64,000 nt of DNA from Chitinophagaceae bacterium (GTDB lineage: Bacteria > Bacteroidota > Bacteroidia > Chitinophagales > Chitinophagaceae): positions 186,001-250,000 of the forward strand of contig JAHBTL010000001.1 of NCBI GenBank assembly GCA_019638615.1, given 5' to 3'. Position numbers and translations under genes: made by a program. Numbering within the stretch: the first letter of the stretch is position 1; each line of letters opens with the position of its first letter. Shown piece by piece: positions 27,468-34,780 of the stretch. The notes below the pieces were generated by a model. It was not told where the DNA came from and searched no databases. It saw nothing but the letters and a program-made list of their open reading frames with translations.

Positions 27468-27690
27468 CCACATGCCCCATTTTCGCAGTTTCCTGTAAAA
27501 TCAAGCATATACAAAAACATCACCGCTCCGGCTAATACCGGCCCATGTTTTAAAAGCCACTAAAATTTTTGAAATTGGGTTCGGGTAGTGGCAGGCCCGC
27601 CTAAACGGACGGACAGGCAGTCAAAAGATGGAAGGATTAAAAAAGCACCTTCAAGATAAGAAGTTTTTTGATAATACCAAATATGCTACA
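27468..27690. repeat. Direct repeat R1, left flank of the Rpn gene (copy of 31152-31372)
   Basis: Segments such as CACCGCTCCGGCTAATACCG, CAGGCAGTCAAAAGAT and GGATTAAAAAAGCACCTTCA recur in the same order at 31152-31372 with roughly 80-85 % identity by eye. R1 leads into the Rpn gene; R2 does not. The repeat includes a short coding-like stretch (EGLKKHLQ). R1 may be the end of a transposable unit. The rest of the gap 27256-27467 holds nothing recognisable. Confidence 0.65.
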
Positions 27691-27852
27691 AAGCGGAGCA
27701 GCAATAGATCATCTCACTCCCGCATATTGATTTTGCAGGCGCAGGGCTGGCAGCATTACTTAAATTACTATTATCGCGCCCGGTTCTTTTTCATCTTAAA
27801 ACATTACATTTCTCTTGAATATTATTATTGTTTTTTAGCCAAGAGGAACTCC

Positions 27853-27904
27853 CATAAAATTTTTCATTCATCCATTGTGTATTTTATGAATGAAAAATTT
27901 TATG
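27853..27904. repeat. Perfect 19-bp inverted repeat upstream of the Rpn gene
   Basis: CATAAAATTTTTCATTCAT (27853-27871) and its exact reverse complement (27886-27904) flank a 14-base loop. It ends 80 bases before the likely ATG of the Rpn nuclease. Such a strong hairpin could block readthrough transcription into the gene, a common way for mobile elements to limit expression, or be a recombination site. Confidence 0.7.
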
Positions 27905-27984
27905 TACGTTTGAATCGTTTTAATATAGCACACTACACCATTCCTGCTATGCATAAAAAACCTATAGCTAACCGGGAAAATACC

Positions 27985-28959
27985 ATGCCGCGCAAAAAAG
28001 ACGATGCTCTTTTAAAAGCCGCTTTTGAAGAGCTTTTTCCTCACCTGCTTCGTTTTTGTTTTCCCAATGCAGATAAAGTATTTGACTTTCGTAAAGGTTT
28101 TGTATTTCTTGATAAGGAACTGACCGAACTGTTCCCCGAGCTTAAAAAGCAGGGAGGCAGCAGGTTCGTGGATATGCTGGTAAAAACATTCCGGAAAAAC
28201 GGGAAGGAAGAATGGATACTGGTACATATAGAAATACAGGGTGGTAGCATAAAAGGATTCCCCAAACGCATGTTCCAGTACTGGTACAGGATATACGACC
28301 GCTACGGAGTGGATATAACCGCTTTAGCAATATTTACCGGCAATAAGCGCCAGCAGCACCCCGATATGTTTCATAAAACGTTTATGGGCACTGAAATTAC
28401 TTACCGCTACAATGCCTATCATATATTCAGTCATTCCGAAGCGGAGCTGCTGGCCATGGACAACCCATTTGCCCTGATCGTGCTGGCGGCACAGAAGGCG
28501 CTGTTGCAGGGCAAAGTACCTGAAGAAGCGCTGGCTGATCACCGGCTGACGGTAGCCCGTGCGTTGATACAAAGCAAAAAATTCAGCCATAACAAGATAA
28601 AGAGACTGCTGCTTTTTTTGAAAAACTTCATCTATGTTGGAAACGAGGAAATAAACCGTAAATTTGATAACCAAATTGAACAATTAACAAGAGGAAAAAT
28701 TACTATGGGTATTATAGAAACCATAAAGAAAATAGAACGTGAAGAGGGTATTGAAATAGGGATGAAGAAAGGTATGGAAAAAGGTATAGAAAAGGGCATA
28801 GAGAAAGGAATGGAAAAGGGTATAGAAAAAGGCAAGCAGGAAGTTATTGAAAACCTGATCATCAAGATGGGACTATCAGATAAGCAGGTAGCCGATGTTA
28901 CCGAAATGCCGGTAAGCTTTGTAAAAAAGATCCGTGCCGCACTAAAAAAGAAAAAATAA
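27985..28959 (+). CDS. Rpn-family recombination-promoting nuclease / PD-(D/E)XK transposase-like protein
   Basis: 324 residues from the ATG at 27985 (MPRKKDDALLKAAFEELFPH). The frame is open 119 codons further upstream, but that stretch crosses the hairpin and repeat and is not protein-like; an ATG at 27949 is the main alternative. PD-(D/E)XK features include RFVDMLVKTF (Asp), then EEWILVHIEIQGG with the ExQ/K-type motif, and KRMFQYWYRIYDRYGVDI. Family members such as E. coli RpnA are DNA endonucleases that raise recombination. Near the C terminus is a run of four-residue GMEK/GIEK repeats. A C-terminal HTH-like SDKQVADVTEMPVSFVKKIR ends it. Confidence 0.85.
   Translation: MPRKKDDALLKAAFEELFPHLLRFCFPNADKVFDFRKGFVFLDKELTELFPELKKQGGSRFVDMLVKTFRKNGKEEWILVHIEIQGGSIKGFPKRMFQYWYRIYDRYGVDITALAIFTGNKRQQHPDMFHKTFMGTEITYRYNAYHIFSHSEAELLAMDNPFALIVLAAQKALLQGKVPEEALADHRLTVARALIQSKKFSHNKIKRLLLFLKNFIYVGNEEINRKFDNQIEQLTRGKITMGIIETIKKIEREEGIEIGMKKGMEKGIEKGIEKGMEKGIEKGKQEVIENLIIKMGLSDKQVADVTEMPVSFVKKIRAALKKKK
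28762..28833 (+). repeat. 12-base coding tandem repeat in the Rpn gene
   Basis: About six units of 12 bases, each coding Gly-Met/Ile-Glu-Lys. Because the unit is a multiple of three, slippage would change protein length without breaking the frame. The units vary in DNA (ggtatggaaaaa, ggtatagaaaag, ggcatagagaaa), so they are not freshly expanded. Confidence 0.8.
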
Positions 28960-29428: not shown

Positions 29429-30082
29429 CTATTCTCTTTTAAACCCGATCATCTCCCTGTTTTTACTCGTTTGAAATTGAATGTTGCATTTGACATCTTC
29501 TATGCTGATCAAATCATCTGTATCGCCTAATACTTCATCAACCAAACCATATTCTTTTGCTTCAACAGCATTAAAAAAATGGTCGCGGCGAAACATCTCT
29601 TCAATTTCATCTTTGGTGTGTCCTGAACATTTTGCCAATCGGGTAAAATATCTGGTTTTGTAATGCTGCTATTCTCTGTAAGCAATGCGAACATCTTCGG
29701 TATAACCTTTGCGCCTGCAGGATGCATGTGAACAGTGGCATAAGGAAGCGCATAACGTTGTTGTCCTTTGGCACCTGCTGCTAAGTAAAACAGTTTGCCA
29801 TGCTGCCGCAAAACCAACCGCAACAGTTGATGCAGGTGATTTTAATTTTCGTATCGTATCATAAATAGCAAAACCTGAATACACAACGCCACCGGGACTA
29901 TTGATGTAAAGCATAATTGGCGCGTGGCTTTTCACTATCGAGGTAAAGCAATTGTGCTACTACAAGATTTGCATATTTTCTTCAATGGCAGTGCCTAAAA
30001 AAACAATTCTTTCTTTTAGCAAAGACTATAAATATCGTAAGCACCTCTTGTGGGTACTGTCTACTACTGTAGGGATGATCAT
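29429..30082 (-). pseudogene. clpP-like pseudogene (copy A)
   Basis: Sequence equals the intact ClpP-like gene at 32818-33474 but is broken by several frameshifts. Compared with copy B there is an extra T near 29630, a loss of about seven bases near 29708 that removes part of the HPAGGGAK loop after the catalytic His, an extra GTT near 29760 and single-base changes near 29785-29815 and 30020. The reading frame is split into at least three pieces, so no active protease can be made. This shows that selection has been lost on this copy. Confidence 0.92.
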
Positions 30083-30083
30083 A

Positions 30084-30344
30084 TCAGGCAAAAATGTTTT
30101 TTAGTTGTTGCGCGAAAGAAGGTTCACGCAGCAGTTGCTGGTAAATTAATTCAACTTATTTCTTTGTTGCCTGCGTGAAGATCGGATAAGTTTATGAACA
30201 TGCTTTTGTGCTTCTACTTTTCAAAAAACAACTTGATCAAGTCAAGCATGCGTGTTTCAAATTGTGCTTTTTTCACCGTTCATTTAAGGTAAATAAATAT
30301 TTTTCTATCTGCTCTGTCTCAATTAAATCGTTCCTCATATACAT
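30084..30344 (-). pseudogene. Anti-sigma-like pseudogene (copy A)
   Basis: Corresponds to the intact 87-codon gene at 33476-33739. Single-base losses (near 30175, 30225 and 30275) and substitutions destroy the frame, including the start of the [14 protein letters not shown] block. It lies between the clpP-like pseudogene and the intact sigma gene, in the same order as copy B. Confidence 0.88.
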
Positions 30345-30825
30345 TTCTTTTTTTTAGCGCTGTGCGAATTTTTTCAATGCATTTATGTTTTTGTACCGTT
30401 GCCGAACGAACGCCATTGAAACCAAAACCTGCAGCGATTTGCTGAAGCGAAAGATTGTCGTAATAAAATGCTTTGAGCATGTGCAAGCATTTTTGTCCTG
30501 CCAGCAATAAGTAGTGAAAAACATTTTTATCTTCATCTGCAGCTTCATTTTCTTCATCAACAAATGCTTCAACATCTTCCGGCAACGGATCGAAGTACTG
30601 ATTTTTAGCATGAAGCCAAAGTATTTTAGCAGTGCCCAGCAAATATGCTTTTGCTGAAGTATGAATTTGCAATGTACCTTTTGCTTCTCTTTCAAGATAT
30701 ATCAATAGCGCATCATGAAAAGCATCATTCGCTTCTTCCGGATTTCCACCCAAACGCTTTATTAAACGCGCTGCTTCGGGAAAGACTTCCCAATATAACG
30801 CAACTAAACTTTCGTGCTCCATCAT
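30319..30825 (-). CDS. ECF-like sigma factor (copy A, intact)
   Basis: 168 residues, about 95 % identical by eye to the copy at 33714-34220; differences include W12 for R, N28 for D, A73 for S, P79 for S, V84 for I and G133 for S. Region 2 (LVALYWEVFPEAARLIKRLG, then ANDAFHDALLIYLERE) and region 4 (CLHMLKAFYYDNLSLQQIAA, then VQKHKCIEKIR) are both present. It would direct RNA polymerase to a specific promoter set. Its operon partners are dead in this copy, so it may be an unrestrained or redundant sigma factor, or simply not yet decayed. Confidence 0.85.
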   Translation of the reverse strand: MMEHESLVALYWEVFPEAARLIKRLGGNPEEANDAFHDALLIYLEREAKGTLQIHTSAKAYLLGTAKILWLHAKNQYFDPLPEDVEAFVDEENEAADEDKNVFHYLLLAGQKCLHMLKAFYYDNLSLQQIAAGFGFNGVRSATVQKHKCIEKIRTALKKRNVYEERFN

Positions 30826-31151
30826 TCCATTTTATTATTAGTGTTCAAAAAGGTAGCATTATCACCTTACATCATGAAATTTTTTTTTCATGTATGAAGT
30901 TGTTTCTAATGCTCACCGTTCATATTTTATTATTTACTCTTGCCGCCAACCCGCATAACAGGATGTTGCAGTAAAATGACGCAAAACACGAATAAATTTA
31001 CGAAATCACGGTTGGGAGTTTTAAAAATGAGTTTTGATTTTCAATAGTTTATCGTCCGCTGAAAAAAATTGTTATTACACCAACACAACTTTTCATATCT
31101 GTGTTCAAACGTTTATAAGCGTTATATATGGGTAATCAGATACAGCCCCAG

Positions 31152-31932: not shown

Positions 31933-31959
31933 ATATAACCTGGTTAAATCCCTTTATGC

Positions 31960-32660
31960 AGGGGAGAAATCTGCCCGGCATTTGTACTAAAGCTCATCAT
32001 CTGTGCTACTGCCCAACGGATTTCTCACCCGCCGCAATATGTTTTAATTCATTAGAACCTGAAGGCGGGTTCGAAATGACGGTTGCGGGTTCCGTCCTTT
32101 CGACTGAGCCAACACGAACGTTATAGTTTAATGCAACTTTTGCGAAGGAGAAATCTGCCTGGCATTTGTACTAATGCTCAACATCTGTGCTACTGCCAAA
32201 CGGATTTCTCACCCGCCGCAATATGTTTTAATTTATTAGAACCTGAAGGCGGGTTCGAAATGACGGGTGTTTGTTCCGTCTTTTCGAATGAGCCAATACG
32301 AACACTATAGTTAAGTGCAACTTTTGCGAAGGAGAAAACTGCCGACTTCTGTACTAATACTCAACATCAGTACTAATGCCAAACAGATTTCTCACCCGCC
32401 GCGAGATGCTTTTAATTTAAACAGCCGGGGGGCGGGTTCGAAATGACGGTTGCGGGTTCCGTCCTTTCGACTGAGCCAACACGAACGTTATAATTTAATG
32501 TAACTTTTGCGAAGGAGAAATCTGCCCACTTCTGTACTAATGCTCAACATCTGTACAACTGCCCAACGGATTTCTCACCCGTCGCATTATACTTTTAATT
32601 CATTACAACCGGTGGGCGGGTTCGAAATGACGGTTGAGGGTTTTTGTCTTTCGACCTCTT
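31960..32660. repeat. Tandem array of four ~184-bp units (CGAAATGACGG repeat family)
   Basis: GGCGGGTTCGAAATGACGG begins at 32064, 32248, 32431 and 32615, spacings of 184, 183 and 184. Each unit reads in order: GGAGAAATCTGCC, a CTCAACATCTGTACTA-type stretch, TGCCAAACGGATTTCTCACCC, CCGCAATATG, a TTTTAATTCATTA stretch, the CGAAATGACGG / CCGTC(A/C)TTTCG hairpin, GAGCCAACACGAAC and TTTAATGCAACTTTTGCGAAG. Single or paired copies occur at 21.4, 34.3 and 34.6 kb. No stable coding region spans the array. Confidence 0.9.
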
Positions 32661-32817: not shown

Positions 32818-33474
32818 CTATTCTCTTTTAAACCCGATCATCTCCCTGTTTTTACCCGCTTGAAATTGAATTTTGCATTTGACATCTTCTATGCTGATCA
32901 AATCATCTGTATCGCCCAATACTTCATCAACCAGGCCATACTCTTTTGCTTCAACAGCATTAAAAAAATGGTCGCGGCGAAACATCTCTTCAATTTCATC
33001 TTTGGTGTGTCCTGAACATTTGCCAATCAGGTAAAATATCTGGTTTTGTAATCGCTCCTGTTCTCTGTAAGCAATGCGAACATCTTCGGTATAACCTTTT
33101 GCACCGCCACCTGCAGGATGCATGTGAACAGTGGCATAAGGAAGCGCATAACGTTGTCCTTTGGCACCTGCTGTAAGTAAAACGGTTGCCATGCTGCCGC
33201 AAAAACCAACCGCAACAGTTGATACAGGTGATTTTAATTTTCGTATCGTATCATAAATAGCAAAACCTGAATACACAACGCCACCGGGACTATTGATGTA
33301 AAGCATAATTGGCGCGTGGCTTTCACTATCGAGGTAAAGCAATTGTGCTACTACAAGATTTGCCATATTTTCTTCAATGGCAGTGCCTAAAAAAACAATT
33401 CTTTCTTTTAGCAAAAGACTATAAATATCGTAAGCACCTCTTGTGGTACTGTCTACTACTGTAGGGATAATCAT
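32818..33474 (-). CDS. ClpP-like serine protease in a sigma-factor operon
   Basis: 218 residues from the ATG at 33474 ([20 protein letters not shown]); a TTG three codons upstream is less likely. It is full-length ClpP with the catalytic triad in place: Ser94 in [14 protein letters not shown], His119 in VHMHPAGGG and Asp168 in [27 protein letters not shown] and LTAGAKGQR are also kept. It differs from housekeeping ClpP around the active Ser (CGSMAT for AASMGA) and His (MHPAGG for IHQPLGG). ClpP forms a barrel that needs a ClpX/ClpC-type unfoldase. There is no clpX or tig next to it, so it is probably a second, specialised ClpP. It follows the anti-sigma-like gene with a single base between stop and start (TGA-T-ATG), which suggests translational coupling. 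Confidence 0.88.
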
Positions 33475-33475
33475 A

Positions 33476-33739
33476 TCAGGCAAAAATATTTTTTAGTTGT
33501 TGCGCGAAAGCAGGTTCAAGCAGCAGTTGCTGGTAAATTAATTCCAGCTTATTTCTTTGTTGCCTGCGTGAAAAGATCCGGATAAGTTTATGAACATGTT
33601 TTTGTGCTTCTACTTTTTCAAACAGCGAATCGTCAAGAAGCATGCGTGTTTCAAATTGTGCTTTTTTTTCGCCGCTCATTTGATGCGATAAATATTTTTC
33701 TATCTGCTCTACCTCAATTAAATCGTTCTTCATATACAT
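33476..33739 (-). CDS. Short anti-sigma-like protein
   Basis: 87 residues (or 85 from the second ATG). [20 protein letters not shown] then [18 protein letters not shown] looks like the N-terminal sigma-binding helices of Bacteroidota anti-sigma factors (IExYLxGxMSxEExxxFExxL). Unlike usual anti-sigmas there is no transmembrane segment or C-terminal periplasmic domain; it ends [12 protein letters not shown]. It would therefore act in the cytoplasm. Its start overlaps the end of the sigma gene by about 26 bases, and the ClpP gene follows one base after its stop. A sigma-binding protein whose removal by ClpP frees the sigma factor is an attractive but untested reading. Confidence 0.6.
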
Positions 33740-34220
33740 TTCTTTTTTTTAGCGCTGTGCGAATTTTTTCAATGCATTTATGCTTTTGTACCGTTGCCGA
33801 ACGAACGCCATTGAAACCAAAACTTGCAGCGATTTGTTGAAGCGAAAGATTGTCGTAATAAAATGCTTTGAGCATATGCAAACATTTTTGTCCTGCCAGC
33901 AATAAGTAATGAAAAACATTTTTATCTTCATCTGCAGCTTCATTTTCTTCATCAACAAATGCTTCAATATCTTCCGGCAACGAATCGAAATATTGGTTTT
34001 TAGAATGAAGCCAAAGTATTTTAGCAGTGCCCAGCAAATATGCCTTTGCTGAAGTATGAATTTGCAATGTACCTTTTGCTTCTCTTTCAAGATATATCAA
34101 TAGCGCATCATGAAAAGCATCATTCGCTTCTTCCGGATCTCCACCCAAACGCTTTATTAAACGCGCTGCTTCGGGAAAAACTTCCCGGTATAACGCAACT
34201 AAACTTTCGTGCTCCATCAT
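33714..34220 (-). CDS. ECF-like sigma factor, first gene of sigma/anti-sigma/clpP operon
   Basis: 168 residues. Region 2 (LVALYREVFPEAARLIKRLG, then DPEEANDAFHDALLIYLERE) binds core polymerase and the -10-type element. An acidic linker follows (DIEAFVDEENEAADEDKN). Region 4 (CLHMLKAFYYDNLSLQQIAA, SFGFNGVRSATVQKHKCIEK) contains the HTH. Length is normal for ECF sigmas. It begins the three-gene minus-strand operon, overlapping the next gene by about 26 bases. TTATTATTAGTGTTC upstream is conserved between the two copies and probably belongs to the promoter. Confidence 0.85.
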   Translation of the reverse strand: MMEHESLVALYREVFPEAARLIKRLGGDPEEANDAFHDALLIYLEREAKGTLQIHTSAKAYLLGTAKILWLHSKNQYFDSLPEDIEAFVDEENEAADEDKNVFHYLLLAGQKCLHMLKAFYYDNLSLQQIAASFGFNGVRSATVQKHKCIEKIRTALKKRNVYEERFN

Positions 34221-34284
34221 TCCATTTTATTATTAGTGTTCAAAAAGGTAGCATTATCACCTTACATCATGAATTTTTTTTAAG

Positions 34285-34780
34285 AAATATCCATTCAGCT
34301 TCAAATCATTTCCCAACAGATTTACCTTCGGTGAGAAAAGTTCTGTCCCGCCGTAATATGTATTAATTCAATACAGTCTACAGGCGGGATCGAAATGACG
34401 GTCTTCGGTTCCGTCATTTCGACCGAGCCAATACGAACACTATAATTTAATGTAACTTCCACGAGGGAGAAATCTGCCGGGTTTTGAACCACAGTTCAAC
34501 ATATATTCTAAAGCAGGAGATGATAGCAGTAATTATAGTATACATTAGAACTAATACCACACCGCTATTTGCCATATCGGGATATAGAAATATCTATTCA
34601 GCTCCAAATCATTTTCCAACAGATTTCTCGCCCGCCGCAATATGCTTTTAATTCATTACCACCTGTAGGCGGGTTCGAAATGACGATTGCGTGTTCCGTC
34701 ATTTCGACCAAACCAACACGAGCAGTATAGTTTAATGCAACTTATGCGAAGGAGAAATCTGCCAGGTATTGTGCTGTTTG
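34285..34780. repeat. Two further copies of the palindromic repeat family
   Basis: Copy one (about 34285-34480) has CGAAATGACGG and CCGTCATTTCG around TCTTCGGTT. Copy two (about 34570-34775) has CGAAATGACG with CGTCATTTCG. Both start with AAATATCCATTCAGCTTCAAATCATTT or a close variant and end in GGGAGAAATCTGCC / GGAGAAATCTGCC. A truncated start of the same unit recurs at 35463-35515. No gene was seen in 34281-34862. Confidence 0.85.

Follow-up and report, generated by a model that had tools for sequence, protein, structure and literature searches.

A conserved Bacteroidota operon of an ECF-type sigma factor, a soluble anti-sigma-like protein and an extra ClpP, with a probable role in raising ClpP

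Introduction

In regulated intramembrane proteolysis of the RseA type, a membrane-bound anti-sigma factor is finished off by ClpXP, and the ClpP involved is the housekeeping one. The operon described here likewise brings a Clp protease and an anti-sigma-like protein into what would be one pathway, but its anti-sigma-like protein is predicted to be soluble and its ClpP is co-encoded. To our knowledge, little is known about how Bacteroidota set their level of Clp proteolysis.

Two further systems come close. In Corynebacterium glutamicum, clpP1 and clpP2 had earlier been reported as SigH-dependent among many genes, and they respond weakly in the data of PMC3489674 itself. The SigH/RshA system (clpP1P2, ClgR) resembles the present one in that an ECF sigma factor is co-encoded with an anti-sigma factor; there, however, clpP is one target of many and lies outside the sigma operon, whereas here the operon itself encodes ClpP, and no other target is as readily recognised. 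For the group ECF115, PMC8999054 describes Clp proteases in the gene neighbourhood, a predicted proteolytic control, and a sigma factor prolonged at its C-terminus by about 70 residues. Compared by this description only, the present operon also has a Clp protease gene nearby, but its sigma factor (168 aa in the window) lacks the extension and its small protein is a separate gene in 20/20 family genomes. A relation to ECF115, from which the description sets the present sigma family apart, is possible, and the family may already have an ECF group number. No description of this operon was found in the literature searched, which did not include the main ECF classification, and an earlier mention is possible.

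Results

The window, by which we mean the whole stretch of 64,000 nucleotides analysed, carries a three-gene operon preceded by a promoter-like motif (Table 1). The small gene overlaps the sigma gene by 26 bases and the clpP ATG sits one base past the small-gene stop, so that the tight packing described in the sequence-only reading is correct by coordinates; an alternative TTG start of clpP at 33483 would give an overlap with the small gene as well. There is no ATPase gene inside the three-gene operon. Repeats of about 184 and about 125 bases around GGCGGGTTCGAAATGACGG flank this copy (copy A) at 31954-32504 and 34273-34770. A gene with EKGIEKGM-type repeats (27628-28959) lies near the operon, and its counterpart at L041, in a relative of the same genus, lies about 1.9-2.6 kb after the sigma start. 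This gene, which resembles those of Rpn-type nucleases/transposases, is found close to the operon in both species of the genus.

Table 1. Features of the two operon copies, in window coordinates.
Feature	Position	Strand	Basis or remark
Promoter-like motif GGTGATA-N16-CACTA, operon copy A	34234..34261	-	G000:C1:220234-220261; motif shared at one spacing by all 99 regions scored
ECF-type sigma factor, 168 aa	33714..34220	-	TIGR02937 E 1.6e-7, below curated cut-off; orthologues
87-aa soluble anti-sigma-domain-like protein (putative)	33476..33739	-	AF2 model with four helices; profile match to cousin N-terminal domain
ClpP paralogue, HMHP type, 218 aa from ATG	32818..33474	-	Pfam PF00574, 195 bits; triad; tree
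Promoter-like motif before second copy, identical to copy A	30839..30866	-	
Second sigma copy, intact, protein 96% identical	30319..30825	-	
Second small-gene copy, broken by indels	30084..30344	-	
Second clpP copy, broken by indels	29429..30082	-	

A sigma search of 294 family genomes, 293 of them besides the source genome, showed a gap between 20 other genomes with E values below 1e-30 and the next match at about 1e-20. All 20 of these genomes with a full sigma orthologue have a separate gene of 68-95 aa overlapping sigma and a ClpP after it, including G293, where the ClpP is apparently frameshifted; the count leaves out one match below the gap, L039 in G033, where a contig end truncates a fragment of 51% identity. 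Because the same gene order recurs in 20/20 other family genomes, chance is excluded. A contig scan of named genomes gave 469 relatives, and the best 80 of these, from Chitinophagaceae, Sphingobacteriaceae, Haliscomenobacteraceae, Roseivirgaceae and other Bacteroidota, were kept, some of them belonging to the same genomes as the family-search loci. A ClpP match lies downstream in 77 of these best 80, no more than about 406 bp beyond the stop codon of sigma in 76 and at 1335 bp in one, while two of the remaining three are without ClpP and one is on a contig that ends too early. The contig of L135 stops 476 bp past sigma, that of L096 stops within clpP, and at L074 the small ORF called by the script was in the wrong frame. 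The sequence-only reading would have been refuted had the three genes been neighbours in no other genome, which is clearly not the case.

Among the 117 Mucilaginibacter sigma loci read, 104 have clpP in the operon. At L112/L283, in this genus, short open frames alone lie in the 1335 bases between the sigma stop and clpP. A phylum sample of 395 genomes contained 46 that match the sigma factor at E 1e-22, and 30 loci are listed; among those with a ClpP are two divergent loci, L217 and L218 (family code f9), which encode a sigma factor, a small gene product of 94-100 aa and a ClpP in the same order. The genes flanking the operon are not conserved, judged by eye among those listed.

TIGR02937 covers the sigma factor colinearly through sigma2 and sigma4, residues 7-157 aligning with model positions 3-165 of 165, at a score of 31.1 against a curated cut-off of 42.9; Sigma70_r2 scores 19.8 against a cut-off of 24, such cut-offs being a convention and not a biological feature. 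A plasmid search with the sigma factor returned distant sigmas only, and three distant matches (25-29%) carry sigma-factor annotation. The protein belongs to a divergent subgroup and, given scores below the cut-offs, is therefore filed as ECF-type and not under a numbered group. The 12 C-terminal triplets that occur most often in 42 sigmas include no AA-type ending.

The 87-aa protein has no match to any Pfam or NCBIfam model. Across 21 family members, the best Pfam hits were GerD, at E 0.0086 in four members, and zf-HC2, at E 0.54 in two, and a profile of the small protein gave no anti-sigma match among PDB sequences. Foldseek matches ranged from E 6.4 to 10; anti-sigma complexes take the first two places among the solved structures, though with E values of 6.4 and 8.0 they are not significant. 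The AF2 model (pLDDT 92.5) has helices at residues 2-17, 23-35, 37-73 and 76-86, which equals the count of four alpha-helices given for class I anti-sigma domains (ASDI) in PMC7406223. Among 194 small proteins, the top 19-residue hydropathy was 1.37, with no transmembrane stretch, and no ssrA-like ending was present among the 25 commonest C-terminal triplets. In a covariation analysis of sigma and small protein, the leading inter-protein pairs fall in a variable linker and the overlapping reading frames, so they are not used here.

The source genome also encodes a cousin sigma factor (contig C4, L007), homologous to the present one at about 30% identity, and with it a protein that has an anti-sigma-like domain, then a hydrophobic stretch, then a Trypsin_2 domain. 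The small-protein profile matches the N-terminal domain of the proteins encoded after cousin sigma factors with a probability of 95.2 and E 2.5e-8 (21 and 8 sequences), and hhalign with larger profiles (32 and 15 sequences) gave 98.0 and E 1.7e-13. The two systems thus have homologous sigma factors and homologous small domains and differ in the membrane anchor (hydropathy 2.24 in the cousin, versus the maximum among the 194 small proteins), in the fused protease, and in that the cousin has no ClpP alongside. Similar protease proteins follow the cousin sigma at 18 of the 30 phylum-sample loci listed, where the motif scores no higher than 6-9 of 12. A quick tree of the sigma factors, which carries a long-branch warning, places 26 protease-fusion-linked rows in one clade (support 99), away from 42 ClpP-linked rows. 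PPAR chains returned by a PDB search with the cousin domain were taken as spurious. Homology to the cousin N-terminus, together with the hydropathy result, supports the view of the small protein as a putative soluble anti-sigma domain, and it is predicted to bind and inhibit the sigma factor. A cytoplasmic anti-sigma had also been presented as a departure from the known regulated proteolysis of anti-sigmas; solubility as such is nothing out of the ordinary, as about 35% of class I anti-sigmas are soluble in the account given in PMC7406223.

The operon ClpP scores 196.5 on the housekeeping equivalog TIGR00493, below the cut-off of 308.6. Numbered from its ATG, the triad Ser94/His119/Asp168 proposed earlier is right and aligns with solved ClpPs. 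The window protein falls in a separate HMHP clade. In a tree of 96 ClpPs, from which 20 operon loci close to others were omitted by hand, the 67 operon rows occupy three places: the HMHP clade with 34 (support 100/99), ClpP1-like with 31, and ClpP2-like with two. The operon label needs 3 changes on this tree, at least 2 of them forced by starred branches. Within the HMHP set, IYSLLLK occurs in 32/34 and RGE near the N-terminus is kept in only 2/34, and these altered N-terminal motifs may affect ATPase docking. The unusual active-site surroundings pointed out by the sequence-only reading (HMHP) mark one of the three ClpP types found in the slot, and most Sphingobacteriaceae operon ClpPs read have the ordinary HQP motif. 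Wherever this was checked, the operon ClpP is an additional paralogue: 20/20 genomes in which an operon clpP is visible encode one or more other ClpPs (that of G305 being truncated at a contig end), and the same status was found in further sets of 5 and 6 genomes. In the source genome, two other clpPs adjoin the gene of an ATPase that matches ClpX in size and sequence type.

Upstream of sigma, the motif GGTGATA-N16-CACTT is found in 99/99 regions with scores of 9-12 of 12, always at a single spacing, which was the best of the three that were allowed. To 20 family loci and the two copies in the window, this set adds 77 named loci, nine of which are on the same contigs as family loci and so counted twice; L061 (duplicate) and L080 and L087 (too short) were left out. 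The most frequent dyad was present in 55 regions, and one shuffled set reached at most 4. The motif scores 10-12 in 117/117 Mucilaginibacter loci, and the divergent ClpP-linked L217 and L218 are without it (score 7). The strict motif is nearly private to the operon. There are 5 matches in the source genome (the two operon copies and three inside genes), against 2 for the reversed control, and 10 in 12 other genomes (seven operons and three inside genes), against 5; in five of the 12 the strict pattern does not occur. A relaxed version gave 286 matches in 61 Mucilaginibacter genomes versus 135 for the reversed control; it is too permissive to define a regulon, and further sigma targets are possible. 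We infer that this sigma factor recognises the motif, and it would then be autoregulated.

The window holds the whole operon a second time, about 3.39 kb from the first copy, at 29429-30825 on the minus strand, a duplicate that the sequence-only reading missed. Its sigma gene differs from copy A by 18 substitutions, without an indel in 507 bases, and the codon changes are 12 synonymous and 6 non-synonymous; the approximately 50 bases upstream of the start codon are identical in both copies. Indels amount to 9 bases in the small gene and 19 in clpP. Because L041 (G239), from the same genus, has the operon in single copy, this looks like a duplication in which promoter and sigma alone have been kept.

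Mucilaginibacter offers a second view of what the promoter may serve. We found 123 sigma loci in 149 genomes of the genus, a name that for genus code g117 rests on contig places common to L091 and L124; 117 loci were read and six were not. In 13/117, clpP is absent from the operon though at least 957 bp follow, and sigma and the small protein are kept in all thirteen. Each of the 13 genomes has a single ClpP-scoring gene, with a ClpX match within 1.5 kb in 13/13, and in 10/13 the motif stands before this clpP at 11-12 of 12, lying 96-164 bases upstream of the start codon; G704 and G795 score 10 and G726 scores 7. A score of at least 11 before clpP is reached by 0/9 Mucilaginibacter genomes in which sigma has no match at E 1e-45, one of which reaches 10. 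Among 14 Mucilaginibacter genomes with an operon clpP, two, out of six entered, read at housekeeping loci and 12 from upstream stretches of 300 and 600 bases, 0/14 reach 10 before the other clpP. Fisher's test gives p 1.1e-6 for the association of the clpP-less state with the motif, ignoring kinship.

On a tree of sigma and small protein, with a long-branch warning for G726 and G704, the clpP-less state needs four changes: nine genomes, all with the site, form one clade, and G731, G795, and G726 with G704 are placed separately. By our own reading of this tree, the site before clpP was probably gained twice, G731 gaining its own. Outside Mucilaginibacter, G166 (L143) and G218 (L141), of one genus, score 11 and 10 for the motif before their other clpP, with a ClpP2-type clpP present in the operon; the score of 10 in G218 may be chance. 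The other non-operon clpPs in this comparison score at most 9, apart from that of G304, one of the 13.

Discussion

We consider it probable that the operon is a self-contained ECF-type switch under autoregulation and that its conserved function is to increase ClpP. In this account the sigma factor would read its own promoter and transcribe the sigma gene, the small gene and clpP together, and the small soluble protein, an anti-sigma domain without the membrane anchor of its cousin, would act as the negative regulator. Release of the inhibitor would presumably follow a signal from within the cytoplasm, possibly damaged protein or the load on Clp, and the freed sigma factor would then provide extra ClpP to pair with Clp ATPases encoded elsewhere. 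We read clpP as the output because the motif precedes it in 10/13 clpP-less genomes versus 0/9 and 0/14 controls, and we take this placement before the remaining clpP as the strongest evidence that the switch serves to raise ClpP. The decayed second copy, with sigma and promoter intact, also counts in its favour. Against it count G726, G704 and G795, which are without a convincing site, the cases of G166/G218 and L217/L218, the excess of relaxed matches, the lack of a significant anti-sigma match and the sub-cut-off sigma scores. The functional link between the genes, which had first been drawn from gene order, is supported as real by the conservation of that order, by the three ClpP lineages in one slot, and by the common promoter-like motif.

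How Clp might act back on the switch can be pictured in two ways. The sequence-only reading, in which the protease seems to be part of the switch, leads to a positive feedback: together with ClpX or ClpC, the ClpP of the operon would degrade the anti-sigma and so free the sigma factor for more ClpP. Operon order and co-conservation agree with this, a soluble anti-sigma would be within reach of Clp, and the cousin also couples the inhibitor domain to a serine protease, there by fusion. We nevertheless think it unlikely: the common endings of the small proteins are not ssrA-like, a dedicated ClpP is not needed since the thirteen clpP-less operons keep sigma and small protein, and the slot is filled by ClpPs of different lineages. 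Alternatively, Clp could degrade the sigma factor itself, or do so with the small protein as adaptor, such that sigma is released once the protease is saturated, and ClpP production rises. With ClpP as the main recognisable target, such a capacity sensor would be logical, and the ECF sigma factor AntA is under direct ClpXP control according to PMC8999054; as the commonest sigma endings are not of the AA type, this homeostatic loop appears doubtful to us.

It is also conceivable that the sigma factor controls other stress genes and that clpP merely hitchhikes in an operon of convenience, as the relaxed-motif excess over control in the 61 Mucilaginibacter genomes might suggest. Recruitment of ClpPs from three lineages, the motif before the remaining clpP in most clpP-less genomes, and neighbouring genes that are not conserved all speak against this explanation, which we find very improbable. 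The ClpP-raising switch remains our preferred account.

A broader interpretation, offered tentatively and at somewhat less than even confidence, is that the operon is a dedicated Clp-capacity regulator of Bacteroidota, built around a single promoter, that measures cytoplasmic Clp load and adjusts the supply of ClpP. Such a regulator would have drawn on three ClpP lineages, would have been rewired onto the clpP near clpX where the operon lost its own, and would share a root with the cousin, where a membrane anchor joins this inhibitor domain to a trypsin-like protease in one protein. The cousin provides a matched comparison of the soluble and the membrane-anchored form of one inhibitor domain. 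It would be unusual for an ECF system to have a protease subunit as its single dominant target, and the motif, the clpP-less genomes and the decayed duplicate make the proposed edge from sigma factor to ClpP testable in cultured Mucilaginibacter and Chitinophaga.
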